Source: Bacteroides congonensis
Lineage (GTDB): Bacteria > Bacteroidota > Bacteroidia > Bacteroidales > Bacteroidaceae
Length of the DNA: 64,000 nucleotides
Reading direction: 5' to 3'
NCBI RefSeq assembly: GCF_900130125.1
Contig: NZ_FQXY01000010.1
Coordinates: 620,001-684,000 of the forward strand
Part shown: positions 3,701-26,251 of the stretch, piece by piece
Layout of the letters: each line of letters opens with the position of its first letter
Position numbering within the stretch: the stretch's first letter is position 1
The notes under the pieces: model-generated
Databases searched by the model: none
What the model saw: the letters and a program-made list of their open reading frames with translations, nothing else
Told to the model about the DNA's origin: nothing
Translations under genes and position numbers: made by a program

Positions 3701-3759
3701 AGGATAGCAAAGAAAATCTTGCGACTCCCCGAAAGGATTTTTCGCCTGTTCTTTTTCAT
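754..3759 (-). CDS. SusC/RagA-like TonB-dependent outer-membrane transporter (locus B)
   Basis: About 1000 residues, normal for SusC. Order: signal peptide ending SLSANAQ, a carboxypeptidase-regulatory-like domain (residues about 30-110, motif GTSNGAITDLDGNFTL), the SusC signature EVVVIGYGSVKRKDVT, a plug domain (PLYVVDGVPV, ASSASIYGSRAANGVILITTK) and a 22-strand-type barrel ending in an aromatic residue (NVEF). There is no STN domain, so it is unlikely to signal through an anti-sigma factor. It imports oligosaccharide captured with SusD using TonB energy. An in-frame ATG at 3864 exists, but the -7 promoter element at 3834-3841 lies inside that extension, and only the ATG at 3759 gives a proper signal peptide. 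Regulator gene 3969-5612 lies just upstream on the same strand. Confidence 0.95.
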   Translation of the reverse strand: MKKNRRKILSGSRKIFFAILAMFLSLSANAQQITASGQVMDAQKEPLIGVSVQEKGTSNGAITDLDGNFTLNVKQNAILIFSYVGYKSQEMKAVRQMKVTLQEDNEVLDEVVVIGYGSVKRKDVTTAISSVSTKDLDMRPIVSAGQAIQGKAAGVSVIQPNGTPGGEMSIRVRGTTSMNGSNDPLYVVDGVPVDNIKFLSPNDIESMQILKDASSASIYGSRAANGVILITTKAGATGNAKVSLTAQFGLNKVADKVESLNSAQYKELQDEIGLVSLPDGLPDRTDWFDETYTTGKTQNYQVAVSNGNEKMKYYLSAGYLKEQGVLDISYYKRYNFRVNLENQVRKWLTVSANISYSDYTSNGGGAMGTGSNRGGVILAVINTPTYAPIWDALNPNQYYNNFYGVGNITNPLENMARAKNNKDKETRLLASGNVLLTPSPDLKFKSTLPFDRRNAVNTTFLDPVSTTWGRNQYGEASDNRNMNTVLTFDNVLTYNKNFKKHGLEVMAGSSWTDSDYSNSWINGSHYRSDQIPTLNAANKISWDNTGTGASQWGIMSFFGRVAYNFDSKYLLTANLRADGSSKLHPDHRWGVFPSFSAAWRISSEKFMQNLTWIDDLKLRGGWGQTGNQSGIGDYAYLQRYNIGRIEWFKKGEEGDKTDYANAVPTISQANLRTSDLTWETTTQTNIGLDLTILNGRLTFNADYYYKKTKNMLMNVSLPAGAAASTSIARNEGEMVNKGFELSISSKNFRGGSFTWDTDFNISFNRNKLTKLELQKVYYDAKTSDVINDYVVRNEPGRALGGFYGYISDGVDPETGELMYRDLNNDGKISSSDRTYIGDPNPDFTYGMTNTFSWKGFNLSIFIQGSYGNDIYNASRIETEGMYDGKNQSTRVLNRWKIPGQITDVPKANFKLLNSTYFVEDGSYLRLKDVSLSYNFKGKLLKKWGITRLQPYFTASNLLTWTSYSGMDPEVNQWGNSGTVQGIDWGTYPHCRSYVFGINVEF

Positions 3760-3833
3760 GCGTACTAATTTAAAAGTTAATAATAAACGTTCGTCTGCAA
3801 CGGAGCTTGTCCCATTGCTTTCGAAGCACAGGT

Positions 3834-3841
3834 CAAAAGTA
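3834..3841 (-). promoter_or_regulatory. Bacteroidetes -7 promoter element of the locus B susC
   Basis: On the minus strand the sequence reads TACTTTTG, a match to TAnnTTTG. It sits about 75 bp before the chosen start at 3759 and shows that the longer reading frame start at 3864 would be upstream of transcription. No good -33 TTTG is visible at the right distance, which may mean that an activator is needed. Confidence 0.5.
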
Positions 3842-3968
3842 TAAAGAAATCGAGGTGAGCTCACGAAGAGGGGTCAATAAGTGGATTATCAAAAGATTCA
3901 ACCCATTTATTACCAACGCATTACCTCTAGTTTACATCTCTAAAAAAGTGGATAGTTTACAGTTCCAA

Positions 3969-5612
3969 TCAGCGGATTTTTCGTACTAAATCTTCAAAAT
4001 CCTCTCGCGAACCACGAGCTTTATTCTTCACTTTCGCCCGGTAGTTATAAATTGTGTTCACCGAATAACGGAGAAATTCCGCAATCTGCGAACTGTCTTC
4101 AATGCCCAGGCGTATCAGGGCAAAGATTCGTAATTCGGTATTCAGCAACTCGTCTTTCTTCAGCACAATCCGTTCATTGTCCTGCAACAGATCATTGAAC
4201 TTCTTCACAAAATCGGGGAAGAGATGCAAGAAAGCCGTATCAAAGTTAGCATAAAGTTCTTCCAGCTCTTCATCAAGCGCATCTTGTGAGCGCGTTATCT
4301 TTAACAGTTCCGCTATCTGTCCGGCGGATACTTTCTTGTTCACCATGCGGCGATAGGCATCCAAACGGTTGATATAGGTAGAGCATAGCTTGATGAAGCG
4401 GGCGATATATTCTTCCTTAATCTGGTTGGATTCCGAAAGTTCGATATTGGTAGCGGACAGGCAACTGTTCATCTGTCTCAACTCTTCATTCAATCCATTT
4501 AATTGCCCGTTAGCCACCTGGAGATGATTACGGGCGTCTGCCAGCTTCTTCATCTGGCGGTAAATATAGCCTAAAGCTACCATCAACAAGACCAGCAATG
4601 CGGTAATCAGCAGCAGATTCTGTTGCAAACGGTCGTTCTGTTTCTCAATCATGGCCTGATAGGTCTTGTCAATCAACGAAAGTACATCGGCGCTTTGCCA
4701 GCTACGCAGGCGGGCATTATAGAATTTGGTCGCATTCCAGGAAAAGCGCATACACTGATATGCACGTTCCATATCGCCATCCTCGTAAAGCAACTGCGCA
4801 AGCATCCATAACGATGCATGGTCTTTAATGGCAGAACGAATATCGGAAATGGCGGAAAGGCACAGGTTCTCTTTCTCGCCTTGCCTGTCATTGCTATATT
4901 TATAAATGAGAGAACGGTGATAAGTAACCAATGCATATTGCGGGGTATTGGGTTCGGCTTCTGCCAGACGGATGTCGTTTATCTTCAAGGCTTCCTCATA
5001 CTGGTGACGGTCACGAAGCAGCGCTTCGTGCATCAGCAGGTATTCTTCGGATTCATGGGGTAATATAGCATACAAGGAGTCCTTATATGCCTGCGATATA
5101 CTCCAGTAATGTCCCGAAAGTGTCTTATCCTGTGTATATACGCTCAGTTCACCATATACATGGTCAAAGCAGGTGTAATAATCGGGAATCAGACGGGGAG
5201 CTACTTCTCTCCGGTCTACGGATTCTAAAACATCAATAGATTCCGTGTACATTCCTGTCGAGGACAATAGTAATGAAAGTTGCAATTTACTTTCTATTCT
5301 GCGGTCGGTATCATGCAAGCGTTCTGCAATCCGGATATTTTCATTCAAATAATGGATTGCAGAATCGCAGATAAAGGCTTTGTATTCTTTGTATATCTGA
5401 CTGTTCAGATTGTAATGTTCCGCAGAACTGGCTTCTATTCCGTGTACTAAATCTTTAAGATGCACGATGCGGGATTCACGTTGTACAACGTACTTTTCAT
5501 GTTCCTGAATGGTCAAATCAAGCACACTGAGCAGCGAATCCAGGGTCTTGCCGGCCCAGGTATATAGTGGAAAAGAAAGAATCAAAAAGAATAACAGGTA
5601 CTTTTTTTTCAT
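3969..5612 (-). CDS. Membrane-anchored TPR regulator with C-terminal LuxR-like HTH (DUF6377-type), locus B
   Basis: 547 residues. A signal peptide ([20 protein letters not shown]) leads into a helical TPR-like periplasmic half (residues about 20-330, including [14 protein letters not shown] and [13 protein letters not shown]). One transmembrane helix follows (about 337-355, [19 protein letters not shown]), then a coiled coil (about 355-400) and a cytoplasmic C-terminal domain. Its end, [19 protein letters not shown] with [14 protein letters not shown], looks like a LuxR/SusR-type helix-turn-helix. This architecture matches Bacteroides proteins grouped as DUF6377, found beside SusC/SusD pairs. 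I infer that it senses a periplasmic ligand and activates the susCD genes just downstream. It is a full-length paralogue of the protein at 20046-21695. Family call from memory; role inferred. Confidence 0.82.
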
Positions 5613-5734: not shown

Positions 5735-8266
5735 CTACCGCATATAAAGGCTGGTTACACTTTGCTTATCCTTAAAGAATAATTTAGCTTTCACCATAGC
5801 TGCCCCGCAAGCTACGGGAGCTTCCCAAAGTACTGATTCAACCGTTGGTTCCGTGCCATCCGTCGTATAACGTATCTGTCCGCCTGCGATAGGGGTATTG
5901 ACGTACAGAAGTCCGTCTTTGACAGAGAGCCCGGGATGAGGCAAACGGAAGTTTACCCCTATCCGGCTCCAGTAAGACATTTCCTTCACACTGATTTTTT
6001 CATAGAACAGTGCCAAATCCCGGTCAAAGGCTTGTTGTTCCGCCACGCCGGAAAGGGCTTCCCAATCCGGGTGCGCATTCCAACCGCGTTCTACCAGTCC
6101 CATTACTTTCGGGAACATATAATATTCTACCCATTGAAATCCTCGAATCGTTTCGGCAAACAGTTGTGCCTGCACGCCTTTTATATTTTCCCTGCCTGAT
6201 GCGGTCAGTGTTGTTTTTCCTTTTCCTGCGGCGCTTACATCGACCGGGTTGCCTGCCATGTCCGTACGGGAAGAACGGTAAACGTCATACGGAAGCATGG
6301 AGAATGCTTTGGACTCATCCACATATCCGCCCCAAAAATGTCCCGGTTCATCGGGATGGGCGTCATAAGCCAAATCCAGATAGAAGTTGTTCACGTTGCA
6401 GAGAATCACCGGATAGCCATTGTTGGCTATCTGATAAGGAATCTCGTCTTCTTTCCATTCAGGAACCGTTTTCCATGAGTTGATGCCGGCTGCATGCCGG
6501 GACAAATAGGCATGAGTCTCCGGTTTATGCTCCAAAGCTACTTCCTGCCAACCGTTAAAAGACAAGTTATACTGTTGCAGGCAGTCAACCACCCGGGTGA
6601 TGAAATACTCGGCCAAGTCATGCGCCTTTGCCATTCCATGTTCTTCCATCAATGCCTGGCACAAAGGAGAACCCATCCACGCACCCCGCGCTACTTCGTC
6701 ACCACCCAGGTGGATAGTAGTCAAAGGAACTTCGGCTTCCTTATACATCGCCACTATTTCCTGAATCACCTTTTCCATAAACCGATAGGTTGACGGCAAG
6801 GCTACATTCATTACATTATCCGTATAGGCTTGTGCGGAAATATAGCGGGAAGTGTCTTGCAAGTCACTCAAGAGATATTCCTTCGCTTTCTCCGGGTCAG
6901 TATCAATGTACTTATTATATCTTGCTTTCATCGAAACAATGGCTGCACGGGCATGGCCGGGAGATTCTATTTCAGGGATGACCTGTATATGCCTTTCCGC
7001 TGCATATTGCAGGAAATCAATAAATTCGGCACGGGTATAATAGCCGTTTCCCGTTGTAGCGGAAAAAGGGTCGTATCCACCGTTGTAGGCAGGGTATTGG
7101 CATTCCTGTTCATCGGTGGTATGTCCCCGTCGCGCACCGACTGTTGTCAGTTCTTCCAAGCCCGAAATTTCCAGGCGCCAGCCTTCATCGTCCGAGAAAT
7201 GGAAATGGAGCACATTCAGTTTATAGGAAGAAAGAATATCTATGAGTTTCTTCAGATTATCAACTGTTGTGTAATTGCGGGCAATATCAATCATCTGTCC
7301 CCGGTATACTAAATCCGGATAGTCTTGGATAGACATTGCTTCCAGGCGTAACGGGCTGTCCTGCCCTTTCAGCAGTCCTAACAGAGTTTGAGTTCCATTA
7401 AAAACTCCGTGCGGAGTAGCAGCGTTGATTCTGATTTGCTGTCCGGCAATATGAAGTTCATAATATTCTTCATTTACTGCCTTTTTATCGTCCGTGAGAT
7501 AATCAAGAACGATAGTCACCGGAGCTTCCGGTGCTATTTCCAGTCCGAACCATCCGGTCAGTTTCTCTTTCAGGAGCTTTGCTTCGTTTGCAAAATCGTC
7601 ATGGAATGTCAAGGCAAGTTGCTTCTCCAATAAGATTTCCCCTTCGGCGGGAAGTACTTTCTTTACGGAAGGTATGATATCTGCCGAACGGAATTCCGAG
7701 GTACGTGCGTTCGCCAAACGAAGATTGGTGTCGTAAGTCTTTTGTGCGGCAGACTTTTGCCATTCTGTAACGGGTAATGGAATGGCATCCAACACCACAG
7801 GAAGCGGCTTTCCTTTGGATGCACCCGACCAGCTTACCCAATAAGCGCCTTCGGGTGCGTGCGAGTTCTTCGGCACTTCGCCGTCACACTTGAAAATCAC
7901 TGTCAGGGAATCTCCCGGAGCTAATGAGGCAAAGCCCTCACCCGGATACATTTTAAAATAGGTAGCGTTTACCTGCTCTACTTTTACCAATGATGAAGCA
8001 TTCGGCAGGATTTTACGGGGAAACTGCGAGTAGAAAATCTCCCAGTCCTTTCCTAAAGGAGCAGCGGAAATGTTCTTCAATACAAATGAGTTCTCATAAT
8101 ATTTGCCGTTTTCATCGTAATTTCCCATTTCCCAGGTCAGAGATACCGGAGCTTTGGAATCATCCGCTGATTTACAACCGCCCGCCATGAGTAAGACACA
8201 CAGCCATCCCGCCAATAAAGAAAATCGTATATCGTTCATAAGTTTCGTTTCTTGGTGATTAGTCAT
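5735..8266 (-). CDS. GH20 beta-N-acetylhexosaminidase lipoprotein
   Basis: 843 residues; removes terminal beta-linked GlcNAc or GalNAc. A lipobox (LLMAGGC) shows a lipoprotein. Domains in order: an N-terminal carbohydrate-binding beta-sandwich (about 35-190, CHB_HEX type), the GH20 non-catalytic domain (about 200-330), and the catalytic barrel (about 330-700) with HFHFSDDEGWRLEI and the catalytic Asp-Glu pair in HLGGDEVARGAW. A chitobiase-type C-terminal domain ends it (RYTTDGTEPT). The ATG at 8266 overlaps the previous gene's stop by 8 bp and has AAGGA upstream. An ATG at 8239 gives a shorter, more usual signal peptide and may be the real start. Last gene of locus A, co-transcribed with the phosphodiesterase before it. 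Confidence 0.93.
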   Translation of the reverse strand: MTNHQETKLMNDIRFSLLAGWLCVLLMAGGCKSADDSKAPVSLTWEMGNYDENGKYYENSFVLKNISAAPLGKDWEIFYSQFPRKILPNASSLVKVEQVNATYFKMYPGEGFASLAPGDSLTVIFKCDGEVPKNSHAPEGAYWVSWSGASKGKPLPVVLDAIPLPVTEWQKSAAQKTYDTNLRLANARTSEFRSADIIPSVKKVLPAEGEILLEKQLALTFHDDFANEAKLLKEKLTGWFGLEIAPEAPVTIVLDYLTDDKKAVNEEYYELHIAGQQIRINAATPHGVFNGTQTLLGLLKGQDSPLRLEAMSIQDYPDLVYRGQMIDIARNYTTVDNLKKLIDILSSYKLNVLHFHFSDDEGWRLEISGLEELTTVGARRGHTTDEQECQYPAYNGGYDPFSATTGNGYYTRAEFIDFLQYAAERHIQVIPEIESPGHARAAIVSMKARYNKYIDTDPEKAKEYLLSDLQDTSRYISAQAYTDNVMNVALPSTYRFMEKVIQEIVAMYKEAEVPLTTIHLGGDEVARGAWMGSPLCQALMEEHGMAKAHDLAEYFITRVVDCLQQYNLSFNGWQEVALEHKPETHAYLSRHAAGINSWKTVPEWKEDEIPYQIANNGYPVILCNVNNFYLDLAYDAHPDEPGHFWGGYVDESKAFSMLPYDVYRSSRTDMAGNPVDVSAAGKGKTTLTASGRENIKGVQAQLFAETIRGFQWVEYYMFPKVMGLVERGWNAHPDWEALSGVAEQQAFDRDLALFYEKISVKEMSYWSRIGVNFRLPHPGLSVKDGLLYVNTPIAGGQIRYTTDGTEPTVESVLWEAPVACGAAMVKAKLFFKDKQSVTSLYMR

Positions 8267-9170
8267 GCCATCCTTTGCTTCTCAGATAATCGAGCATGTA
8301 AGCCGGAGCGTCTGTTTGCAGGATTCTTGCTCCTAATGTATTAATGAGATATCCATAGCTTGCGTCCGGGTCTTTTTTCGCGAATTCATCGTCATGTCCT
8401 CCCGCTAAAGAAGCCCATAAGGTATTATACCAAATCAGGCTCTTTCCCGCCAGTCGGCGTTCCATCCTGACAGGTACTGTGCTCGAAGGATTCCGGTAGC
8501 ACAATTCAAAAGCAACGGGATGCAACTGCTCCATATAGTCCTCGATAACTTTTACCGATTTCTCATCGTCAATCGTTACGACGGGCATATAGATTACTTT
8601 ATCCAGGTAAGAGCCGAATTCACGTTTCACCGTCTCTACCGGATGACCACCTTTCATAATAACTAAATCGGCAGTGCCGGTTTTCTCCAATATAGCATAT
8701 ACATCATCAAAGATGTTGTAAGCCTTGTCCAGATTCACCATGATTTGACCTTTGGCGGCCAATAATGCTTCTTCTAAAGTGGGAACGGTATATTCCGTCA
8801 GCCGGCCGTCTTTATCCTTCAACCGGAGTTGCTTGATTTCAGCCAATGTCTTATCCTTCACTTTGCCTGTACCATTGGTGGTGCGGTCTATCGTATCGTC
8901 ATGCATCAGTACTAATTGTCCGTCTTTCGTCTTACGGATATCTATCTCCACAATGTCGACTTTCATCTGGATAGCACTGTCGATGGCTGCCACGGAGTTT
9001 TCGGGGGCAATACTCCAATTTCCACGATGCGCCACCACCAATACTTTGTCCAGGCGCGGATTCAACACATCTTTACGAATAGCTTCCGCCCGTTGTGCAG
9101 CCAGGAAACCCGGCTGCAAACAGAACAGTAACAAAAGCACAATGAACTTGCTTTTCTTCATATCTTTCAT
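8259..9170 (-). CDS. Secreted glycerophosphodiester phosphodiesterase (GDPD family)
   Basis: 303 residues with a signal peptide ending FLAAQ; probably periplasmic. GDPD enzymes cleave glycerophosphodiesters to glycerol 3-phosphate plus alcohol. The hallmarks are present: VVAHRGNWSIAPENS (catalytic His-Arg-Gly), DIVEIDIRKTKDGQLVLMHD (metal-binding Glu/Asp and second His), DRTTNGTG, and the closing QTDAP followed by a final helix. Length is normal for a stand-alone GDPD. It lies between a beta-helix/fimbrillin lipoprotein and the GH20 enzyme; a second, divergent GDPD sits at the head of the same locus (18649-19779). The pairing with GH20 suggests a glycerophosphate-bearing glycan, which is inference. 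Confidence 0.92.
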   Translation of the reverse strand: MKDMKKSKFIVLLLLFCLQPGFLAAQRAEAIRKDVLNPRLDKVLVVAHRGNWSIAPENSVAAIDSAIQMKVDIVEIDIRKTKDGQLVLMHDDTIDRTTNGTGKVKDKTLAEIKQLRLKDKDGRLTEYTVPTLEEALLAAKGQIMVNLDKAYNIFDDVYAILEKTGTADLVIMKGGHPVETVKREFGSYLDKVIYMPVVTIDDEKSVKVIEDYMEQLHPVAFELCYRNPSSTVPVRMERRLAGKSLIWYNTLWASLAGGHDDEFAKKDPDASYGYLINTLGARILQTDAPAYMLDYLRSKGWHD

Positions 9171-9244
9171 CAGTTATTTAATTTTCTTACTTAATTATAT
9201 TCAACGTTCTACCTTTTTATTGCAGAACTACTTTTATGCTGCAA

Positions 9245-11392
9245 TTACAATCCGGCATCATAAGCTCCGGGCTGCATCTTGTTTGCATTACGAATTGCTC
9301 CACGCTGGTCTACGCCAAAGCCTTCTTCACCCACCCAATCTACAAATTGCTGTCCCACAGTCACATCGAAAGACTTCACCGCGTCAATAACAGCCTGTCG
9401 GGTTGCAAATTCGTCAATAATACTAGCCACAGTCCATTGGTAAACACCGTCAGTCAACGAAGCAGCCGGAAGAGTTTGAGATGAATAGTCCGTATCGGTA
9501 CCGATAGCCCCCCAATTGGGATCTGCCGCCTGATATACGTTGTATCCTTTGGAAGTTATATTACCGGCATAAATTGTCTTGGTTCCTGCTCCTTTGACGA
9601 AAAGGGAGTTGACTATAAGAGAAGCCCCCTTTCCTGCACGGAATACTCCGTTAGGATTGCCCGAATTACCAACAATCGTGGTATTGGAAAGCATAAAGCG
9701 AGCATCTCCGTTGACAGTAATACTATTCTTACTTGTACCCGTAGTGCCAAGTACAGTTGTATTATTCATACAAATATACCCATTTCCAGCATGTATAGCA
9801 GTACCCCAGGCTTCCGATGCATAATTTTCACGCAAAAGGCAATTGTTCATAAATAATAGAGGAGTATTATTATTACCTACCAGAATAGCTCCACCTCGAT
9901 TATTTGCCCAATTGTCTACAAGTTCTACACATTCCAAGAAAACATCTCCATTGGCTATCTTGATAGCCGAACCTGCATCAGAAGCACCTTTGCGGTTGAA
10001 GTTCTTCACAACACAATTTTTCAATTGCAGGCTGGCGTTGCCTTGACCTGCCGCCGCATAAAAACCATTCACATTTCCTTTATCACCTTGCTTATATTGT
10101 CCGTCAAAAGTACAACCGTCGAAAGTTATATCTATTTGGTTTCCAAGACAAAACATTGCGTCAGTTGTAGCAGATGCATTACTGCCCGTATTCCTGACAA
10201 AAGCAGTCGTATATTTGCCGGTGTCACGTTTCGTCAGGTCAGTTCCCGTACTCGCAGGGTCATATCCGCCTTCAACCGTTATTTCCACTTGTTTGCTGTA
10301 ACCACTATATTCTATCTTCACGCCAGAGTTTTCTTTCGCTATCTCATAAGAGCCTGCGGCTACATAAATCTTCTTGCCATCCAGTTTGACAGCATTAGCA
10401 TTGGAAACAGCACTGTTGCCATTCGTTTGCAACAAATTACGTAGCGCATCCACTCCCATGGCATTGTCCCAATCCATACCGGTTGCATTTCCGGCCGGCT
10501 GTTCTTTCACATAGTAGGCTGCAAACTGTAATTCTTCCGCGTCTCCACCCTGGATAGTACCGCTATCCCACGGGGAAACAATCGGTTCACTGATTGATAT
10601 TACCGAGCCTTCCACCTTCAGGGTGAACTCATAACACTTTCCGGGTTGCAGTTCCGGGATGCCGGGCATCACCAAGTCCTCACCGAGATAATTCAAAGAG
10701 ACGAATGTAGCGGTTGTCTCCGCTTTGCCGGGAGCTACAATAGCCGTATAGCTGCAACCGTTCTGTCCCGCCTTGCCGCCTTCGGGAATGGTGATGAACG
10801 GTGATATCAAAGAAGTACCCGATACCACTTCCCCATTCATATAGCCTTGATAAGAGCCTATTTTCACTCCTTGCACCTTACCTTGTCCGCTTACATCCGC
10901 CAGTGTCATAATGACTTTCGCCATTTTCCGGTTCATACCTAGGCGAAGGATACGGGAACCGTCGTCGGTGGCATTCGCCACAGTACAAGTCATATAATCG
11001 GCGTTTGCCAGGTTCTCCAGGCGTTGCTGATTGGCGGGAAGTGTAAAATTGAGCGTGCTTGCCCCGTTCACTACCGGATAAAAGGCAGAGTAAGTAACAG
11101 GTTCCGCTCCCCATCTCAAATAGTAGTTATCGGTCGGTGTCCATTTACCGCCGGAGAGCGCATAAGTCAGATACCCGTCTTCACAAGTCAACTGGATTTG
11201 GTCACCTTCATTAAATTGCTTCTGCTGTTCTCCCGCCGCACCGGGATTGCTACGGGTGAAAGCCGTATTAATGGCAGCTTCAATCTGAATAGCACCGGAA
11301 TCTTCACCGTACACTGCAATATCCTTATCTGTATCACAAGCTGCCATACCCGTCAGGATGCATGCAGCCATTATCAGTTTTGTAATCTTCAT
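9245..11392 (-). CDS. Fimbrillin-like (Mfa-type) lipoprotein fused to a right-handed beta-helix domain
   Basis: 715 residues. A lipobox (LTGMAAC) gives a lipoprotein. Residues about 30-290 follow the fimbrillin/Mfa-like pattern (AFTRSN, FNEGDQIQL, a Tyr-rich YYLRWGAEPVTYSAFYPV, MNRKMAKVIMTL, then a strand ending before SPWDSGTIQGGD). Residues about 300-715 form a parallel beta-helix (VDALRNLLQTNG, repeated coils such as FDGCTFDGQYKQG and FMNNCLLRENYASEAWGTAI) ending in FGVDQRGAIRNANKMQPGAYDA. The C-terminal half is clearly paralogous to the separate protein at 12324-13775, so this looks like a fusion of the two neighbouring protein types. Probably a cell-surface glycan-binding or adhesive protein of locus A; no catalytic signature recognised. 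Confidence 0.8.
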   Translation of the reverse strand: MKITKLIMAACILTGMAACDTDKDIAVYGEDSGAIQIEAAINTAFTRSNPGAAGEQQKQFNEGDQIQLTCEDGYLTYALSGGKWTPTDNYYLRWGAEPVTYSAFYPVVNGASTLNFTLPANQQRLENLANADYMTCTVANATDDGSRILRLGMNRKMAKVIMTLADVSGQGKVQGVKIGSYQGYMNGEVVSGTSLISPFITIPEGGKAGQNGCSYTAIVAPGKAETTATFVSLNYLGEDLVMPGIPELQPGKCYEFTLKVEGSVISISEPIVSPWDSGTIQGGDAEELQFAAYYVKEQPAGNATGMDWDNAMGVDALRNLLQTNGNSAVSNANAVKLDGKKIYVAAGSYEIAKENSGVKIEYSGYSKQVEITVEGGYDPASTGTDLTKRDTGKYTTAFVRNTGSNASATTDAMFCLGNQIDITFDGCTFDGQYKQGDKGNVNGFYAAAGQGNASLQLKNCVVKNFNRKGASDAGSAIKIANGDVFLECVELVDNWANNRGGAILVGNNNTPLLFMNNCLLRENYASEAWGTAIHAGNGYICMNNTTVLGTTGTSKNSITVNGDARFMLSNTTIVGNSGNPNGVFRAGKGASLIVNSLFVKGAGTKTIYAGNITSKGYNVYQAADPNWGAIGTDTDYSSQTLPAASLTDGVYQWTVASIIDEFATRQAVIDAVKSFDVTVGQQFVDWVGEEGFGVDQRGAIRNANKMQPGAYDAGL

Positions 11393-11410
11393 AGTTTATC
11401 TCCTCCTTCT

Positions 11411-12304
11411 TTAATTCCGGTCGACAAGCTGACCGGTTGCCCAATCTCTGGCTACCATGGCAGCCAATCGCGCAGTTGTATTTACATTGAGAGTCAAGGT
11501 ATGTTCCACTCCTTTTTCCAGTTCGACGGCTGCCTTGGCAGTCCATATATACAGTTTCCCGTCGTAGCTGAAGTTGATGGAGAAACCTTCCGCTATCGTT
11601 TGCGGGGGTAGGATACATTCGCAATACTCCGTTCCTTTATAGGGAGCCACAGTGGCTACTGCCGCATCCGCCGCAGGAACAACTACCGGAGCTGCTGCCG
11701 ACAAATCACAAGTGCCGTTAACGACAGCCCCGTTGACAGCCATGTCTCCCAACTTACCCATATCGGCATCCGCCGTTCCATTGACAGTGAGTTTAATAAT
11801 CAGCTTGCTCATGGCATGATTTAAGGAGATTTTCAGCTTTCCATCGGCAGTCAAATCCTTCTCCGGGTCGATTGTCTCTTTCATCAACAGAAAATCGGAT
11901 GCCATCACATTCGCTTCTGCCGACTGATTGGTCAGTGCGTTCACCGCTAACGGAGCGTCCGGAGTGGCTTCACCCGTGTAAGGCGCATAGGCTATCATCA
12001 TTACAGGCGTTCTTTCCGTATCCCAAAGCATTTGTTGCCCGTCAGACGTATTCCAGGTGTTTCCTGAGCCAACCATTTGTTTATGGTAGTTATAAGCGGC
12101 GTTTTCACTGTTCCGAATCATTAATCCGAAGCGTTCCAGATTCGTTGCGTCATATCCTGCACGCGACAGAGGTTCATTCACTTCTGTTATAACGCTGATT
12201 ACCCGTTCTCCGGGGAAAGTACCCGTCGGCAGCGATTCATCCTCGTTATTGGAGCATCCGGCCAGTCCGATGCCCAAAGCTAGTATATAAAATATCTTTT
12301 TCAT
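11411..12304 (-). CDS. Fimbrillin-like (Mfa-type) lipoprotein
   Basis: 297 residues with lipobox (IGLAGC). The body has the fimbrillin-family layout: EPLSRAGYD near the start, a strand with MMIAYAPYTG, then LKISLNHAMSKLIIKLTVNG, the conserved central motif of Mfa/FimA-like proteins, and ECILPPQT before KLYIWTAKAAVELEKGVEHT. Shorter than true fimbrial subunits and placed in a glycan locus, so I favour a surface accessory or binding role over a pilus. Downstream neighbour 9245-11392 starts 18 bp later and carries the same domain at its N-terminus. Confidence 0.82.
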   Translation of the reverse strand: MKKIFYILALGIGLAGCSNNEDESLPTGTFPGERVISVITEVNEPLSRAGYDATNLERFGLMIRNSENAAYNYHKQMVGSGNTWNTSDGQQMLWDTERTPVMMIAYAPYTGEATPDAPLAVNALTNQSAEANVMASDFLLMKETIDPEKDLTADGKLKISLNHAMSKLIIKLTVNGTADADMGKLGDMAVNGAVVNGTCDLSAAAPVVVPAADAAVATVAPYKGTEYCECILPPQTIAEGFSINFSYDGKLYIWTAKAAVELEKGVEHTLTLNVNTTARLAAMVARDWATGQLVDRN

Positions 12305-12323
12305 GTTACAGTCGTTTTACAGT

Positions 12324-13775
12324 TTAATTCGCCAGAACGGCATCATAAGCGCCAGCCTGCATCTTGTCGGCATTACGGGTCACTCCACGCTGGTCTACTC
12401 CGAAAGCATCCTCACCAACCCACTCTACAAACGCTTCTCCCAGATTAACAATGGGCGAAGCTACCGGATTGAAACTTTTTGCCACCTCTATCACCGCCTG
12501 CTTCGTGGCATATCCTTTTACCGTACCAAGCTGGTTGATGTCCCATACATAAACGCCTTCCTCATTCAGCGTGCCGTTCACAGGATTGGGATAAGCCGTA
12601 TCAAGCGTACTCATCGTAATGCCTATGACGCGTTGATAGACGTTATAGCCTTTTGATGAAGCTTCTTTATTGCTTCCGTTCAGATTGAAACTTGGAGCAG
12701 AAGGATTTTCGGTAATCAAAAGGTTATTGATAAACTTCGTATCCCCACCAATTCCTGTCTCGCAACGGACAGCCCCATGGCTATCACTTCCATTTCCCAC
12801 AATCGTACTATTGACAAGCAAGAAACTTCCCCCACCATTCAAGGCAGCACCCGTACCTTCATTCTCTATAATCGTAGTATTGTTCATGCAGATATGCCCT
12901 TCCGACATCTGAATTCCATTGCCCCATGAACCCGAATGGGAATTACCTTTCAGCAAACTATTATTCATTAATGCCACAGCAGTCTTACTATTACAACGCA
13001 CAGCTCCTCCACGACCTACCGACGTATTATCCAGAAGCTTTACATTATTCAGCCGGACTTGTCCCGACAGGATGAAGACAGCCGCTCCCCCTTGTTTAAG
13101 AGAAGTCGTCACTGTCGATTTACAATCCCTGATTACACAGTCAGTCAGTTCAACGGAAGTATCGCCCGCGCTGCCGCTTACATAAATACCACTTCCGCAT
13201 TCGGTGGTACTCGCGTCCGCTTCGGATACATATCCATACTGGAAAGTGACTCCCTCAATGCCGATAATCCCTTTCTTGACCAACAGCAATCCACAGTCTC
13301 CCGCATCCGCCTGCTTATTTCCGTTCACATCGCCACTGATAATCGTTGCATACGTGTCTATATCCCGTTCCGAAACGTCCGTTCCTTCGCTAAACTGGCT
13401 ATATCCGCCTTTAACCGCTTTCACATTCTTGCGGATAATCACGCCAAGCCCGCTCTCTTCGGACATCACATATTTGCCCTGGCTCATATAAATAGTGCTC
13501 TTGGAAAGGTCGACAGAGCCGCTCAACAGTTTGCGGAAACCTGCCGCGTCCATCGCCTGCTCCCAGGAACTACCGTCCATATCACCCTCACCGAACTGGG
13601 TTACAAAGTAACTTTCCAACCCTTTCTGCATAATCACTTCTTCGTCCAAATCATCGTCATAATCAGTCATCATAGGCGGGTCTATCATCTCATAATCTTC
13701 CTGGCATCCTTGTGCCAACAGAATAATGAAAGCCAACATACACAGCTTTGATATTATAAATAAACTATTTTTCAT
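12324..13775 (-). CDS. Right-handed parallel beta-helix lipoprotein
   Basis: 483 residues with lipobox (ILLAQGC) and an acidic linker (about 27-50, DYDDDLDEEV). The rest is a beta-helix of the polymorphic-outer-membrane-protein type: repeated short strands ending in Asn/Gly turns (VELTDCVIRDCKS, VRLNNVKLLDN, ALMNNSLLKGNSHS, CMNNTTIIENEG, LLVNSTIVGNGS). Its tail (WVGEDAFGVDQRGVTRNADK) is nearly the same as the tail of 9245-11392, showing common origin. Such folds host lyases as well as binding proteins, but I see no lyase active-site signature. It follows susD of locus A and likely forms part of its surface complex. Confidence 0.8.
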   Translation of the reverse strand: MKNSLFIISKLCMLAFIILLAQGCQEDYEMIDPPMMTDYDDDLDEEVIMQKGLESYFVTQFGEGDMDGSSWEQAMDAAGFRKLLSGSVDLSKSTIYMSQGKYVMSEESGLGVIIRKNVKAVKGGYSQFSEGTDVSERDIDTYATIISGDVNGNKQADAGDCGLLLVKKGIIGIEGVTFQYGYVSEADASTTECGSGIYVSGSAGDTSVELTDCVIRDCKSTVTTSLKQGGAAVFILSGQVRLNNVKLLDNTSVGRGGAVRCNSKTAVALMNNSLLKGNSHSGSWGNGIQMSEGHICMNNTTIIENEGTGAALNGGGSFLLVNSTIVGNGSDSHGAVRCETGIGGDTKFINNLLITENPSAPSFNLNGSNKEASSKGYNVYQRVIGITMSTLDTAYPNPVNGTLNEEGVYVWDINQLGTVKGYATKQAVIEVAKSFNPVASPIVNLGEAFVEWVGEDAFGVDQRGVTRNADKMQAGAYDAVLAN

Positions 13776-13830
13776 TTTCTTTCTTTTTTAACTTGTACAT
13801 TAGATAAGAATAATCGCAAATCTGCCGATT

Positions 13831-15606
13831 TCATCGGGCAATATCAGGATAACCCGGATTCTGTTTCAGATATTCGTTCTGCTCCAGTTGGGTCTGCGAC
13901 AAGGGGAACAACTCATAATGCTTGTCCGCGTCCCGTGGCTTGTCCCACCATGCCTCCTGATATCTGCCGAAACGAATCAGGTCTGTACGCCGGCGGCTCT
14001 CCGCCAGGAATTCACGTCCCCATTCATCAAGCATTTCTTTCAGGTCGAGCACGACATTGCCTTCCGGCTGATAAGCGATATTGGCGTTAAAGTTCTCATA
14101 GTTGCGCTTACGCACGCTGTTCAGCAGCTTGCCCGCTTCGCCTGCCTGTCCTTGCCGGAGCAGAGCCTCAGCCTGCGAATAGATAATCTCCGCCAGACGT
14201 ATCTCCGTATAGTCGGACTCGATATAATAGCCTCCGGTGAACGGATAGAACGGGTACTTCACACAATAGAGCCCGGAGTTAAAATCTCCATTACCCAATA
14301 TCGACTCCTTATAAGCCGGATTGGAAATATAGCCGGACTCTGCGTTTCCCTCGAAACGTCCTACCTGGTCACGCAGGTAAATCACATATTGATTATCCGG
14401 ATTCTTGGCATATCCCCCACTAACTGCGGAATTTGGAATCTTACCTTCAAGGAAGAACATGCCTTCGCGTGTATTGTTACCGGTATTTGTATATTGCTTA
14501 TACCGTATATCTCCCTGATATTTGGCAAACTTCCGGGTAACCATTCCCAATCCATAGTCAAACAGTTCACGCGGTTGCTGGTTGTCATAGCTCGGTGAAA
14601 GCGCGTATTTCGGATTCCGTTCGCCATTTCCTTCTATCTTCAGGTAATAGGCGCTGCCGTAAGGCAAGCCGCGCCCGTAGACCGTTCTCCTGTCATTTTG
14701 CAGATGCCAACTAGTAAGTCCGTAAGAACCGGGGAAACCGAAAATCACTTCATTACACGTTTCGTTGTTCCAGTCAAAAGGTTCGTACCAATTATCCGCA
14801 ATCGCATAATGCCCGAATTCTCCGCCGGTGATACGCTTGCACATGTCGATACATTCCTGCCATTTGGCCTGCCCAATCCACACTTCTGCATTCAAATAGA
14901 GACGGACTAGCAAAGAGGCGGCGGCAGCTTTCGTAAATTGCCCTTGTTGCGCGCCATTGCCGGACTGCCCGCTCTTGGAAGGCAGAGCTGCAAGACAGTA
15001 GTCTTTCAGTTCACTTTCGATGAAATCGAATAGTACCTGCGGTTCTACCTGTTTCCGGTTTTCCGGCAGTTCATTTACTGCCTGGTCGGATGTAGTAGTG
15101 AGGATGCAGTTACGATGTGTATTCAGCAGACGGAGATATCCCCAGGCACGCATACAGCGCAATTGTGCCTTGAAACTTTCAAATTCATTGTCACTCAAGC
15201 CAAAAGAGGACGGGTTCAACTGGTTCAAGTCATCCAGTACCATATTACATTGGGCAATGCCTACGTAAAAGTTTTCCCATTCACTCAACCAGTCGCCCTG
15301 ATTGATGTCATCGTATTGATGGCGGTGATACATTTCCCACAGACCGCCGTCGTACCACCAAGTGCCACGGGTAGGTGTAATCAACTGGTCGGCGGGCAAT
15401 TCCTCATTCTCATGGCGTATCCAGATACAGCAGTACATATGTTCGAAGGGGCGGAAGACGGCATTGATAACATCCTGTTTCGTATTGTAATAGTTCTTGG
15501 ACATCACTTGGTCGTACACCGTTTCCGACAGGTCGGTACAGGACGGCAAACCCAGCACAGCGCCCGCCATCATACCCAATCCTATGATATATTTTGTCAT
15601 TTTCAT
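13831..15606 (-). CDS. SusD/RagB-like surface glycan-binding lipoprotein (locus A)
   Basis: 591 residues, normal SusD length. Signal with lipobox LGLPSC; then the family's N-terminal TPR helices (FESFKAQLRCMRAWGYLRLLN, AAAASLLVRLYLNAEVW). The C-terminal part has TEIRLAEIIYSQAEALLRQG, LLNSVRKRNY and the characteristic WGREFLAESRRRTDLIRFGR, where the ligand-capping lipoprotein folds back, followed by LFPLSQTQLEQN. It caps the SusC partner encoded 14 bp upstream. Substrate not deducible from sequence alone. Confidence 0.95.
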   Translation of the reverse strand: MKMTKYIIGLGMMAGAVLGLPSCTDLSETVYDQVMSKNYYNTKQDVINAVFRPFEHMYCCIWIRHENEELPADQLITPTRGTWWYDGGLWEMYHRHQYDDINQGDWLSEWENFYVGIAQCNMVLDDLNQLNPSSFGLSDNEFESFKAQLRCMRAWGYLRLLNTHRNCILTTTSDQAVNELPENRKQVEPQVLFDFIESELKDYCLAALPSKSGQSGNGAQQGQFTKAAAASLLVRLYLNAEVWIGQAKWQECIDMCKRITGGEFGHYAIADNWYEPFDWNNETCNEVIFGFPGSYGLTSWHLQNDRRTVYGRGLPYGSAYYLKIEGNGERNPKYALSPSYDNQQPRELFDYGLGMVTRKFAKYQGDIRYKQYTNTGNNTREGMFFLEGKIPNSAVSGGYAKNPDNQYVIYLRDQVGRFEGNAESGYISNPAYKESILGNGDFNSGLYCVKYPFYPFTGGYYIESDYTEIRLAEIIYSQAEALLRQGQAGEAGKLLNSVRKRNYENFNANIAYQPEGNVVLDLKEMLDEWGREFLAESRRRTDLIRFGRYQEAWWDKPRDADKHYELFPLSQTQLEQNEYLKQNPGYPDIAR

Positions 15607-15620
15607 AATCGTTCCTTTTT

Positions 15621-18617
15621 TTAAAAACTTACTTGCAAACCTAAAATAAACTGGAAGGCAGACGGATAGTAGTTGTATCCTCCTCCGAAAGTACCCGGCG
15701 TCAATCCGTTCACTTCGTATGTAGAGGGGTCTACACCGGTGAACTTCGTGAATGTATAAAGATTGTTGGCTGTGCCGAACAGGCGTATCTTTTGGATATA
15801 CTTTTTATTCAGGTTCATCGTATATCCCAAAGTGATATTGTCTATCTTCAGGTAATCACCCGGCTCGATGAAATAGTCGGTAATCACGTTCTTGCCGGTC
15901 GTGATATGCGCATTCTTCGAATAAGCGGTCGTCAACTGATTGGTGCTCATGCTCTGCAATCCGAAATAGAAATCGTGCACGTTGAATATATCGAATCCGG
16001 CAGCGCCACGAAGGGCAACGGTCAGGTCAAAGTTCTTGTAAGTGAAGTTGTGCGTCATAGAACCAGTGAATTTCGGCAAGCCGTTTCCGGTCACTGCCTT
16101 GTCTTCTTCCGTTCCTTGAGCCACCGGAATGACATTTCCTTTCTTGTCATAAATCAGCCAGTCACCCTTTTTGTCTACCCCGGCATAGCGGTAGGTGTAG
16201 TAGTTACCGATGCGTTCTCCCTCTTCAATCCGTTGCAAGTATCCCGGATTGTTGGGATTCGCCATGTTGCAGGTCGAGTAATATTTCTGCCCTTTGTACA
16301 CGTCGTTTGAGAAGCTGACAAACTTGTTATTATTGGTAGCTCCCACCAATGTGAAGCTATAACTGAAGTCTTTTGTACGGACTGCATTCACCGTTATGTC
16401 AAGCTCGAAACCTGTGTTGCGGAGTGTGCCCACATTGGCATAAATAGTGGTAAACAAGTTGGGCGGAACGGATACGGAGTAGCTACCCAGCAAATCGCTC
16501 TGTTTACGGTGGAAATAGTTCAAAGAACCGGTCACTTTGTGCTTGAAGAGTGAGAAGTCCAGACCGATATTCTGATTATGCCCCTTTTCCCAACGGAGTT
16601 CCGAGTTTACGTTCTTGCTCGGCCCCCATACGTGGAAGTTGTTGCCGTTATACTGATACCAGCCATATGCCTTATAAGTAGCCAAAGACTGATAGTTTCC
16701 TATTTCCTGATTACCGGTGACACCGTAGTCATAACGTACTTTCAGGTCATCAAGCCAGGATAGTCCTTTCATAAATTTCTCGTCAGAGATACGCCATCCT
16801 ACGGATACTGCGGGGAAATTACCCCATTTATGATTCTCGCCGAAACGGGAAGAACCTTCATGACGCAGGGAGAAAGTGAACAGGTAGCGTTCTTTCCAGT
16901 CGTAGTTGACACGTCCGAAGAAGCTGATTAGCTTATGGTCGTTCTTGTAAGAGCTCATCATTGTTTTTCCTTCTTTCGCCGCTTCCAGGCCGGAACCGAG
17001 ATTGTTGTACATCAAGCCATCGGAAGAGAAGTCCCAGTTTTCCGCGCCCATGCCCGAACTTACACCGTAGTTATAGCTATATCCTACCATTGCACGGATT
17101 TGGTGGTCTTTGATGCGGGTAGAGAAGTTGGTCACCCACTCCAGGTTGTTGCTGGTGCTCTTGTCAAAGTCACGGCTTGCTTTTCCGGCAACGCTTGAGT
17201 TGACATTAGGGCCATAGGTGGACGGGGTGAACCATCCGTTGAACTTATCGACCTGGTATTGTGAAAGGGTCACCTGTGATTTCAGCACCATATTCGGGTT
17301 CTTCGGATTGAATAGGGGAAGCAGATTGACGGCAGCCGTAGCATTCCACTCCAACAGTTTGATTTCCGTTCCGTTCTCTTCCTCGTTCAGTTGCTCGACG
17401 ATATTGGAACTGTCTCCTCCGGAAGGGAAACGATAGTAGCCATTGGCGGATTCGGAATCGTAAATAGGCATGGTCGGGTTATTCTTGATAACACTGCCAT
17501 AGACGCTTGCCGATTTGTTCCGGTCGATTACGCGCGGAGTCATGTTGGCGGAGAATGTGAACAGACCGTCTTTCGTTGTGTGGCTGATAGTGGCACGTGC
17601 ACCGTATTCCCGGCGGTCTGAACGCAGGTCGATACCTTGTGCCTTGCGGTAGTCGGCAGTCACACGATAGTTGGTTCTCGCGTTTCCACCGGAGAAAGTC
17701 AATGTATGCATATGCGTCACACCCAGGCGGGTAACGGCATCGAACCAGTCTGTGGTAGCTCCCATATCGGAAAGCGGATTGGATACGGTGCGGTAGGCAC
17801 GATATTCTTCGGCGTTCATTATATCCAGTTCTTTCTTCGCCTTGTTGAAAGTAACGGCGGTGCTATATGTAGTATGCACTTCCCCGTCTCTTGTTCCTTT
17901 CTTCAGGTTTACCAGGATGACACCGTTACTCCCCCGTGTACCGTAGATAGCAGAAGCCGCACCGTCTTTCAATACGTCGATAGATTCGATATCGGCCGGA
18001 TTGATATTCGTCATATCACCGCCCGGCACTCCGTCAACAACAATCAACGGGCCCAGGCCGGCATTACGTGAAGATATACCACGAATCTGAATGCTTCCCG
18101 TACTGTTCGGATCGGCCAAAGCCGTATTTGAAACGGATACACTGGATACCTTGCCTTGCAGGAGCATGGAAGCATCAAGACTGGAAATCTGATTAAGGTC
18201 TTTAGCACCTACGTGCGAAATAGCCGAAGTCATTTCTTTCCTTTTCATCGTGCCGTAACCTATTACCACTACTTCATTCAAAGCGGTCGATTCTTCCTTC
18301 AACACGATTCTCAATGACTGGCGGTCTTTGATGGCTACTTCCTGTGTTTCGTATCCGATATAAGACACTTTCAAGCGACCGTTCTGCGGGGCATTCACAC
18401 TGAATTTTCCTTCTATATTGGTTATCGCTCCTTGTTTCGTCTCTACAACCACCACCGAAGCACCGATGACAGGCTCGCCCTTCTCGTCGATGACCGTACC
18501 GGATATTTTACGTTCCTGCTGCGCTTCCCACGAAGCTCCCCTTGCCTGGATACCGGAAAACAGCATCAGCAATATACCTAACAGACAGGTACACATTTTG
18601 CAATGAATATTTCTCAT
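15621..18617 (-). CDS. SusC/RagA-like TonB-dependent outer-membrane transporter (locus A)
   Basis: 998 residues. Signal peptide, carboxypeptidase-regulatory-like domain (about 37-120, GEPVIGASVVVVETKQG), SusC signature NEVVVIGYGTMKRKEMTSA, plug (LIVVDGVPGGD, AASAIYGTRGSNGVILVNLKKG) and a long barrel ending FILGLQVSF. No STN domain, in keeping with control by the adjacent DUF6377-type regulator and not by an ECF sigma/anti-sigma pair. Works with the SusD at 13831-15606 to import oligosaccharide. It starts 31 bp after the PKD-GDPD stop, so it is in the same operon. Confidence 0.95.
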   Translation of the reverse strand: MRNIHCKMCTCLLGILLMLFSGIQARGASWEAQQERKISGTVIDEKGEPVIGASVVVVETKQGAITNIEGKFSVNAPQNGRLKVSYIGYETQEVAIKDRQSLRIVLKEESTALNEVVVIGYGTMKRKEMTSAISHVGAKDLNQISSLDASMLLQGKVSSVSVSNTALADPNSTGSIQIRGISSRNAGLGPLIVVDGVPGGDMTNINPADIESIDVLKDGAASAIYGTRGSNGVILVNLKKGTRDGEVHTTYSTAVTFNKAKKELDIMNAEEYRAYRTVSNPLSDMGATTDWFDAVTRLGVTHMHTLTFSGGNARTNYRVTADYRKAQGIDLRSDRREYGARATISHTTKDGLFTFSANMTPRVIDRNKSASVYGSVIKNNPTMPIYDSESANGYYRFPSGGDSSNIVEQLNEEENGTEIKLLEWNATAAVNLLPLFNPKNPNMVLKSQVTLSQYQVDKFNGWFTPSTYGPNVNSSVAGKASRDFDKSTSNNLEWVTNFSTRIKDHQIRAMVGYSYNYGVSSGMGAENWDFSSDGLMYNNLGSGLEAAKEGKTMMSSYKNDHKLISFFGRVNYDWKERYLFTFSLRHEGSSRFGENHKWGNFPAVSVGWRISDEKFMKGLSWLDDLKVRYDYGVTGNQEIGNYQSLATYKAYGWYQYNGNNFHVWGPSKNVNSELRWEKGHNQNIGLDFSLFKHKVTGSLNYFHRKQSDLLGSYSVSVPPNLFTTIYANVGTLRNTGFELDITVNAVRTKDFSYSFTLVGATNNNKFVSFSNDVYKGQKYYSTCNMANPNNPGYLQRIEEGERIGNYYTYRYAGVDKKGDWLIYDKKGNVIPVAQGTEEDKAVTGNGLPKFTGSMTHNFTYKNFDLTVALRGAAGFDIFNVHDFYFGLQSMSTNQLTTAYSKNAHITTGKNVITDYFIEPGDYLKIDNITLGYTMNLNKKYIQKIRLFGTANNLYTFTKFTGVDPSTYEVNGLTPGTFGGGYNYYPSAFQFILGLQVSF

Positions 18618-18648
18618 AAATAGATGATTTTAATAGTAAATGATAAAG

Positions 18649-19779
18649 TTAACGCAGTCCTCTTGTCTGCAAGGCCGGAATTAACAAGTCCGGTACATCC
18701 GTCTGTATCATACATACCATCGGATAGATTTGCAGGAGTTCATCCAGATAGTCCTCGTTCAGTGTCCATTCGGATACACTGCTGCCGCTTGCAGGAAGCA
18801 TATTCACGGTAGCCAGCATTCCATCGTTGATGGAACTTCCCAACGGAGTACTTTTCCCGTTTGTCAGGTAGCTGTATTGCACGAAGTAGTTACCCGGCAG
18901 TCCCATCATCGGTTTGTGGTTGCCCGTCCACGTATAGACGTGCGCTTTGGCTGTAATTCCCAGCACTTCTTCCGCTTTCTGCGCGCTGTTACAGTAGAAG
19001 AATACGGACTCCATCATGTCAAGTTTCATCACGATGTCCACTACCTGTTGGGAAGAAGCCGTACGCGGGGAATAATCGAGGTTGTAGTAGATTCTGCCAC
19101 GTCCCGCTTTCAGGAACTCTTCAAGGGTGGGCATCTTTTCATCGGTTACCCGACCGTTCCGGTCTTTCAGGTTGTACTTTTGTAATTCCGCGTAGGTCAT
19201 TTTTGTGATGTCGCCCGTACCGTTCGTGGTGGCATTGATTGTCTGGTCATGGCATACCACTACCACTCCGTCACTTGTCACGTGGGTATCGCACTCTATC
19301 ACTTCCGCTCCCGACTCAATGGCATCTTCTACGGAAGATACCGAGTTTTCGGGGATAGTACGGTCGGTGGTATGCGCACGGTGTGTCATCACCCATACCT
19401 TCTTGTTCGACGGTTCCCTGAATTGCTTCATCGCTTCCGTCAGTGCCAACAGATTATAAATACGGATTCTTTTCTGTACCTCATACTGACCTGCCGTGAC
19501 GTGCATGGTATAGTCGCCACTTTGGGTATAGGCATGAGTAATGAGGGTAGCTGCTTTCCCCTCTTTCACCGTCCCGTCACCAAAATCGACAGTAATATCG
19601 GTATTTCCATCAATGTTGTTAAACTTGACCTCCACCACCTCTTTCAACATGGCGCGAGTACTTGTTTGCAGGTAAGGGTTCTTTTTCACAGAATCATCGT
19701 CAGAGCAGGCGATACAGACTATTCCGCATACGCATAGAATAGCCCAACACCATAACCAGCTCGCAAGCTGACGTTTCAT
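18649..19779 (-). CDS. PKD-domain glycerophosphodiester phosphodiesterase lipoprotein
   Basis: 376 residues from the ATG at 19779, which has a strong purine-rich ribosome site (AAGGAAGAAG); an in-frame ATG at 19827 would add 16 residues ahead of the signal. Lipobox VCIAC. Residues about 45-100 form a PKD-like Ig domain (VDFGDGTVKEG, HAYTQSGDYTMHV). The GDPD domain follows (about 125-376): THRAHTTDRTIPENS, AEVIECDTHVTSDGVVVVCHD, ATTNGTG, and the closing IQTDVPDLL. The usual HRG catalytic triplet reads HRA here, while the His-Arg and the second His remain. First gene after the locus A regulator, so the surface phosphodiesterase leads the operon, an unusual arrangement for a sugar locus. Confidence 0.9.
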   Translation of the reverse strand: MKRQLASWLWCWAILCVCGIVCIACSDDDSVKKNPYLQTSTRAMLKEVVEVKFNNIDGNTDITVDFGDGTVKEGKAATLITHAYTQSGDYTMHVTAGQYEVQKRIRIYNLLALTEAMKQFREPSNKKVWVMTHRAHTTDRTIPENSVSSVEDAIESGAEVIECDTHVTSDGVVVVCHDQTINATTNGTGDITKMTYAELQKYNLKDRNGRVTDEKMPTLEEFLKAGRGRIYYNLDYSPRTASSQQVVDIVMKLDMMESVFFYCNSAQKAEEVLGITAKAHVYTWTGNHKPMMGLPGNYFVQYSYLTNGKSTPLGSSINDGMLATVNMLPASGSSVSEWTLNEDYLDELLQIYPMVCMIQTDVPDLLIPALQTRGLR

Positions 19780-19868
19780 TCTTCTTCCTTTTTCCGGTAT
19801 GGAAAAATGCAACAAATCATTTTTCATGTGTGTTTTTATAAAGGTTAATAAAAAAAGAAGTTCCCGGG

Positions 19869-19888
19869 GCGGAATATGTTAGTTCCGC
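19869..19888 (-). promoter_or_regulatory. Dyad GCGGAA-N8-TTCCGC in the locus A operon leader
   Basis: Perfect 6-bp arms around 8 bases, located just downstream of the -7 element at 19899-19906 on the minus strand, near the predicted transcript 5' end. It could be an operator or a 5' stabilising hairpin. Confidence 0.4.
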
Positions 19889-19898
19889 TCGGTTATGA

Positions 19899-19906
19899 CA
19901 AAAATA
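19899..19906 (-). promoter_or_regulatory. -7 element of the locus A operon
   Basis: Minus-strand TATTTTTG (TAnnTTTG) about 120 bp upstream of the PKD-GDPD start; no clear -33 TTTG at the proper spacing. This is the likely promoter of the seven- to eight-gene operon that ends with GH20. Confidence 0.45.
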
Positions 19907-20045
19907 GATGGAAATGCTACGATAAAAAATAGCAAAGGGAATATAAGTGGATATTCACAATATCCCCCAAAAGGCAATTATTTGATAAACAATACATTAA
20001 ATTACATTATGCCCGTATCAAAAGGTAGATTTGATACAGACTTGT

Positions 20046-24075: not shown

Positions 24076-24077
24076 AC

Positions 24078-24911: not shown

Positions 24912-24914
24912 AAT

Positions 24915-25361: not shown

Positions 25362-25371
25362 TTAAAAATAC

Positions 25372-26250: not shown

Positions 26251-26251
26251 G

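Follow-up and report, generated by a model that had tools for sequence, protein, structure and literature searches.

Gene content of the operon

The analysed window is a 64,000-nucleotide stretch of the 6.37 Mb Bacteroides congonensis genome (G000; positions 620001-684000 of contig C11), and it holds an operon of eight co-directional minus-strand genes that runs from a PKD-domain glycerophosphodiesterase (GDPD) down to a GH20 beta-hexosaminidase (Table 1), with intergenic gaps, in operon order, of 31, 14, 55, 19, 18, 74, and -8 bases. A preliminary description of this DNA had SusC/SusD flanked by two GDPDs and one GH20 with no other glycosidase, and a Pfam scan of the operon proteins agreed, GH20 being the sole glycosidase family matched; that description made no mention of the three proteins of binding type encoded after SusD and before the second GDPD. 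SusC and SusD are adjacent (14 bases apart) and share the operon with the GH20, two of the features that mark a Sus-type polysaccharide utilization locus (PUL). Like Sus-type PULs, the locus unites in one operon a SusR-type regulator, SusC/SusD, lipoproteins, and a glycosidase for degradation, but it carries two GDPDs and a single glycosidase instead of a polysaccharide-cleaving enzyme set. We consider it somewhat probable that the operon is a SusCD PUL for glycerophosphate-bearing glycopolymers with beta-linked N-acetylhexosamine (HexNAc). The substrate class would be either a glycerophosphate polymer resembling teichoic acid or a glycan that bears glycerophosphate as side groups, e.g., N-acetylglucosamine (GlcNAc)-6-glycerophosphate, two options that sequence does not separate.

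Table 1 Genes of the operon, its likely regulator, and the leader between them
Feature	Positions	Strand	Evidence
PKD-GDPD	18649-19827	-	Pfam GDPD 98.9 bits, PKD 28.7 bits
SusC-type outer membrane transporter	15621-18617	-	TIGR04056 688.9 bits
SusD-type protein	13831-15606	-	SusD_RagB 68.2 bits
Binding-type protein, probable parallel beta-helix	12324-13775	-	Without Pfam family; model of low confidence showing short, regular strands
Fimbrillin-like (Mfa_like_1) lipoprotein, probable surface binding protein	11411-12304	-	PF13149 107.1 bits
Lipoprotein with fimbrillin-like N-half and beta-helix-type C-half	9245-11392	-	PF13149 72.4 bits; C-half homologous to 12324-13775
GDPD + DUF4996 enzyme (second GDPD) with signal peptide	8259-9170	-	Pfam GDPD 91.6 bits, DUF4996 108.9 bits
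GH20 beta-hexosaminidase, chitobiase type, lipoprotein	5735-8266	-	GH20 287 bits, CHB_HEX domains
SusR-type regulator (DUF6377)	20046-21695	-	DUF6377 293.6 bits; 53% identity to 3969-5612
Leader, regulator to operon, 218 bases	19828-20045	-	TATTTTTG inside conserved block

Conservation across Bacteroides

Related operons, defined by a SusD of at least 60% identity, were found in 10/158 Bacteroides genomes, the window's own included, and in 0/392 other genomes of the order sample, few of which are Bacteroides. The PKD-GDPD was present in 9/9 scorable operons, the GH20 in 8/9, and the second GDPD in 9/10, counts in which the five class A operons are close copies and not independent; the operon of G043 is cut by contig ends and was not scored for GH20 or PKD-GDPD. 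The co-occurrence of GDPD, GH20, SusCD, and a SusR-type (DUF6377) gene that the preliminary description had proposed to look for recurs. Because the host genome holds 15 GH20 and 5 GDPD matches overall, the pairing of the two families in one genome is weak evidence, but the same set recurs in other Bacteroides, which argues that it is not a chance association.

Class A (G000, G012, G086, G009, and G021) has the full operon including the GH20. Bacteroides sp. GM023 and B. acidifaciens DSM 15896 carry operons of this class, with second GDPDs 94-98% identical, and a scan of named genomes for the second GDPD returned three loci, two of them class A operons. In class B (G106 and G157), a SusR-type gene and the PKD-GDPD accompany SusCD, a single binding-type protein, a second GDPD, and a GH20 of 53-54% identity. 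Its second GDPD is 58-60% identical to the enzyme of a GlpT-linked lineage (the C1 locus below) and 50-51% to the window enzyme, so in these two operons the role appears to have been kept while the gene was exchanged. In class C (G044) the PKD-GDPD follows SusD; the binding proteins and a GH20 of 66% identity are present, but the locus has no second GDPD. The G110 operon has a hybrid two-component regulator and no GH20. The core of the scorable relatives is the PKD-GDPD with SusCD, not the GH20.

The two GDPDs and the binding proteins

Alignments showed the HR, PEN, E-x-D, and HD motifs retained in both window GDPDs, each of which has a GDPD domain with the catalytic His and the E-x-D metal ligands of GlpQ-type enzymes. 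The second GDPD was 69% identical to PDB 3i10, and the structure model of the PKD-GDPD was too weak for use (mean predicted local distance difference test, pLDDT, 54.0). The PKD-GDPD gene had been given as 18649-19779; the gene stands, and its open reading frame runs to 19827, with 19779 as the second ATG. That ATG may be the true start, because it leads straight into the signal peptide.

Cell locations were called by Bacteroides lipoprotein rules. The PKD-GDPD signal ends CIACSDDDS, which we read by eye as that of a surface-type lipoprotein, and the enzyme is predicted to be surface-located. The lipobox pattern had no match in the window PKD-GDPD, SusD, or the 12324-13775 protein; it matched both class B PKD-GDPD orthologues (FTACSDED), the 11411-12304 (LAGC) and 9245-11392 (MAAC) proteins, and the GH20 (AGGCKSADD). 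The second GDPD has a signal peptide with no lipobox by pattern and is therefore probably periplasmic. The 12324-13775 protein had no Pfam match at E values up to 1 and shared 33% identity with the C-half of 9245-11392. Its model was also too weak for use (mean pLDDT 49.6), and a fold search with it returned mostly beta-helix proteins, none at an E value of 0.001 or better.

GH20 lineage and associated esterases

The best PDB matches of the window GH20 were 9joq and 1qba, a GGDE motif is present, and by family the enzyme would be exo-acting. We rejected a single exclusive clade of operon GH20s: in a tree of 28 GH20 sequences, the eight from the operons required three parsimony changes, two of them forced by starred branches, and 0/200 bootstrap trees (0%) united them. 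Several independent gains, or a single gain followed by separations, could account for this. No window-type GH20 lay within 9 kb in any of the 51 other stretches that hold both SusC and a relative of the second GDPD; L093 and L108 have another GH20 type, on the opposite strand or beyond a gene of opposite orientation, and were left uncounted.

SGNH esterases are common in PULs. In the G157 class B operon the GH20 is fused to one (GxDLY, Lipase_GDSL_3; L034:5231-8728), and in G106 the esterase is a separate gene directly after the GH20; among window-type operons it occurs only in class B. Such esterases also adjoin GDPDs on the same strand in L107 and on the opposite strand in L103, L104, and L106, a proximity that is suggestive only, given how common they are in PULs.

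SusCD lineage and GDPD relatives elsewhere

The window SusD was 41-54% identical to the SusDs of 13 stretches of 20 kb (L036-L048) in which no GDPD was found. L037, the sole one of these to be scanned, held SusE/F, Melibiase_C, GH97, and GH31 proteins. Identity to the SusDs of other GDPD loci was 22-26% where BLAST gave a match, and 30% in G036. Judged by these identities, the window SusCD is of another lineage than the SusCD of the GlpT loci, and we interpret the operon as a glycan-type transporter to which GDPD enzymes have been joined.

We fetched 63 stretches that each have a relative of the second GDPD as their anchor, with L010-L013, L030, L031, the window, and the C1 locus excluded; two pairs overlap and some are cut by contig ends. 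SusC was present in 55 and absent from 8, and 33 had a GlpT-like gene within 4 kb. In these stretches the GlpT-like gene often follows sigma, FecR, SusC, and SusD genes, and mostly no glycosidases were recognised. The C1 locus of the host genome (L006, G000:C1:1378000-1397000) is of this type, with sigma, FecR, SusC, and SusD genes, a PKD/propeller-GDPD of 843 residues, a GDPD + DUF4996 gene, and a major facilitator superfamily (MFS) gene that we take to be GlpT-like (Pfam gives MFS_1). It resembles the window operon in its homologous second GDPD (51%), beside the larger PKD/propeller-GDPD, but has GlpT and no GH20, whereas the window operon combines its GH20 and SusR-type gene with a SusCD pair from a different lineage. 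A table in PMC10434189 places the B. thetaiotaomicron GDPD BT4727 near the SusC/SusD pair BT4724-25.

NAGPA phosphodiester glycosidase domains were found in four GDPD stretches from G043, G110, and G012 (L104 and L107 by Pfam, L103 and L108 by BLAST), with a weak fifth in L109, suggesting that these operons may be loci for sugar-phosphodiester glycans.

Two stretches, L026 and L086 (G042 and G047), had five GDPD-family genes by BLAST within 20 kb. A further set recurred in L028, L087, L088, L089, L091, L098, and L110, where GDPD-GlpT was accompanied by a propeller protein, an AP_endonuc_2 TIM-barrel, and a Lactamase_B_3-type hydrolase.

A sister locus and wall-polymer chemistry

A locus in G036 (L020/L113, G036:C20:30126-65000) comprises SusR-type, GH31, SusC, SusD, metallophosphoesterase, GDPD, GH65, second metallophosphoesterase, second GDPD, and GlpT genes, the GH31, SusR-type, and GlpT calls being by BLAST only. 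Its SusC and SusD were 37% and 30% identical to the window proteins. It shares with the window a SusR-type gene, SusCD, two GDPDs, and dedicated glycosidases, but GH31 and GH65 replace the GH20, and two metallophosphoesterases and GlpT are added. The best PDB match of the GH65 was 7fe3 (607 bits over 642 residues). A paper in which this entry is named describes FjGH65A, an alpha-1,2-glucosidase acting on kojibiose, in the context of branched dextran (PMC8626586); the possible link to teichoic acid is thus our own. Enterococcus faecalis lipoteichoic acid (LTA) is described as bearing kojibiose on the glycerol C-2 hydroxyl (PMC4012979), and GlpQ is reported to degrade only unsubstituted polymer, halting at units that carry glycosyl or alanyl groups (PMC7086022). 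In chemical terms, it would therefore make sense to place a debranching hydrolase next to GDPDs.

GH20 is a beta-specific family, and the GlcNAc side chains of the streptococcal group A carbohydrate are beta-linked. These side chains are described as carrying glycerophosphate on C-6 of GlcNAc (PMC12282279). A beta-specific GH20 would be a good match to GlcNAc-6-glycerophosphate on the streptococcal rhamnan and a poor one to LTA with alpha-GlcNAc. Glycerophosphate-decorated glycans suit such an enzyme at least as well as polyglycerophosphate does.

Substrate and alternative explanations

Cell location, order of steps, and substrate in the following scheme are our reading of the gene content, families, layout, and conservation reported above. 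The surface binding proteins and SusD would hold the polymer, the surface PKD-GDPD would cut exposed phosphodiesters, and SusC would import the resulting fragments. In the periplasm, the DUF4996 GDPD would remove glycerophosphate and the GH20 would remove terminal beta-HexNAc, and the SusR-type protein would sense a product.

Several observations weigh against glycerophosphate-bearing glycopolymers as the substrate. The strand that reads E-x-K in ordinary GDPDs (1zcc, 4oec) is N-x-D in both window enzymes: Asn occupies the position of GlpQ Glu-152, as placed by alignment to other GDPDs and not to GlpQ itself, and Asp replaces the Lys found two residues further along. N-x-D was also present in 50/50 relatives readable by pattern (21/71 were unread); the class C PKD-GDPD has Ser in place of the Asn, and a GDPD on contig C7 of the host genome retains E-x-K. 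The calcium ligands of GlpQ are given as Glu-70, Asp-72, and Glu-152 (PMC7086022). The third of these is lacking in the window GDPDs, which share with the B. subtilis teichoicase the GDPD family and the HR, E-x-D, and HD motifs but differ from it in this ligand, in the following Lys, in their PKD or DUF4996 parts, and in their SusCD-operon setting. Because the metal site differs, the activity, stereospecificity, and specificity of GlpQ cannot be transferred to them.

Similar points concern the GH20 and the setting of the genes. The window GH20 was up to 68% identical to GH20s that stand alone or in loci without a GDPD; those at 62-68% were either alone, beside a gene that we take by eye to encode a malic enzyme, or in a SusCD locus beside another GH20 (67-68%) with a gene that is presumably HGSNAT-like. 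The G082 GH20 (L057), closest to the class C enzyme, had no GDPD in its 20 kb stretch, and since the G110 operon keeps the rest of its genes without a GH20, the enzyme is accessory and dispensable. Of the nearest second-GDPD relatives outside this operon type, those of L049 (66% identical), L050 (58%), and L018 (55%) belong to the eight stretches that hold no SusC, and those at 64-65% (L015, L032) lie with GH43 and GH3. The window operon contained no enzyme for rhamnan or another backbone and no GlpT gene. A GlpT-like gene was present in 8/10 operon-bearing genomes; G009 (99% complete) had none at an E value of 1e-30, nor did the incomplete G043, and GlpT is not a necessary exit for the product because G009 has the operon without it. 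Staphylococcus aureus LTA is described as carrying alpha-GlcNAc (PMC4012979). Being alpha-linked, this GlcNAc should be spared by a beta-specific GH20.

The teichoic-acid-like utilization suggested in the preliminary description survives in part. The GDPD pair belongs to the operon, the GH20 recurs in 8/9 operons, GlpT-like genes occur in 33/63 stretches around second-GDPD relatives, and the GH31 and GH65 of G036 fit substituted glycerophosphate polymers, but specificity for the polymer is weakened by a generic, accessory GH20 and a metal site unlike that of GlpQ.

The GlpT-like genes in those 33 stretches, mostly without recognised glycosidases, together with the C1 locus and the loss of GH20 in G110, would also fit scavenging of small glycerophosphodiesters (glycerophosphocholine, glycerophosphoinositol, and similar phospholipid head groups) as a source of carbon or phosphate, with the GH20 as a passenger. 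We regard this as unlikely, though to be taken seriously: the window SusD is nearer to the SusDs of non-GDPD loci than to those of other GDPD loci, uptake of small solutes does not resemble a system with three binding-type proteins and a surface-type enzyme, and the GH20 is found in nearly all scorable operons. The changed metal site could instead reflect a changed GDPD specificity, the operon serving a HexNAc glycan with a non-glycerophosphate phosphodiester (sugar-phosphate, phosphoethanolamine, or phosphocholine), and the four NAGPA-bearing stretches indicate that GDPD loci can meet sugar phosphodiesters. This explanation seems to us rather improbable, as the GlpT-like genes near the second-GDPD family point to a product of the glycerol-phosphate type, and the window operon has no NAGPA match by Pfam. 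The similarity of the GH20 to enzymes of the two-GH20 SusCD locus is what an ordinary PUL for a host or dietary HexNAc glycan would show, its GDPDs having a minor or stress role; with a core of PKD-GDPD and SusCD rather than GH20 and a single glycosidase, exo-acting by family, we find this quite improbable.

Extending the glycerophosphate-glycopolymer reading beyond the window, we offer as a speculative possibility that gut Bacteroides have a modular class of SusCD loci for eating Gram-positive teichoic acids and other glycerophosphate glycopolymers. The GDPD pair would cut the phosphodiester chain, and exchangeable debranching enzymes would be suited to the substituents of different prey: GH20 would act on HexNAc, GH31/GH65 on alpha-glucosyl or kojibiosyl groups, and SGNH esterase on esters. 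Gram-positive bacteria are rich in teichoic acids and in wall glycans decorated with glycerophosphate, and no report of a PUL for these polymers was among the matches listed in the open-licence PubMed Central literature. If the reading is true, the operon supplies a transporter, enzymes, and species for direct tests of feeding on Gram-positive wall polymers, and functions could be assigned to GDPD families that are common in Bacteroides.

Regulation and neighbouring genes

The window holds two SusR/DUF6377 genes, at 3969-5612 and 20046-21695. The latter sits 218 bases upstream of the operon and likely regulates it; class A and class B operons are both preceded by a SusR-type gene. The leader aligned in 5/5 class A operons with a mean column identity of 90%. 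A pattern search located the TATTTTTG element in the window, and a promoter role is predicted for it. The full Bacteroides promoter pattern had no match within the leader.

The left SusR-type gene (NF058541 SusR_regulator, 625.2 bits) was rejected as an operon member because it heads a neighbouring PUL, so only the right one probably belongs to the operon. This PUL continues with SusC at 754-3864 and then GH30 and DUF5016 proteins (L009), and further along with a protein that by eye we take to be GH3-like; it is presumably similar to a beta-1,6-glucan locus. Elsewhere in the window, five small co-directional genes lie at 23530-27181; one of them encodes an LpoB/CsgG-like protein (24078-24911) and another a DUF6175 protein (25372-26250).

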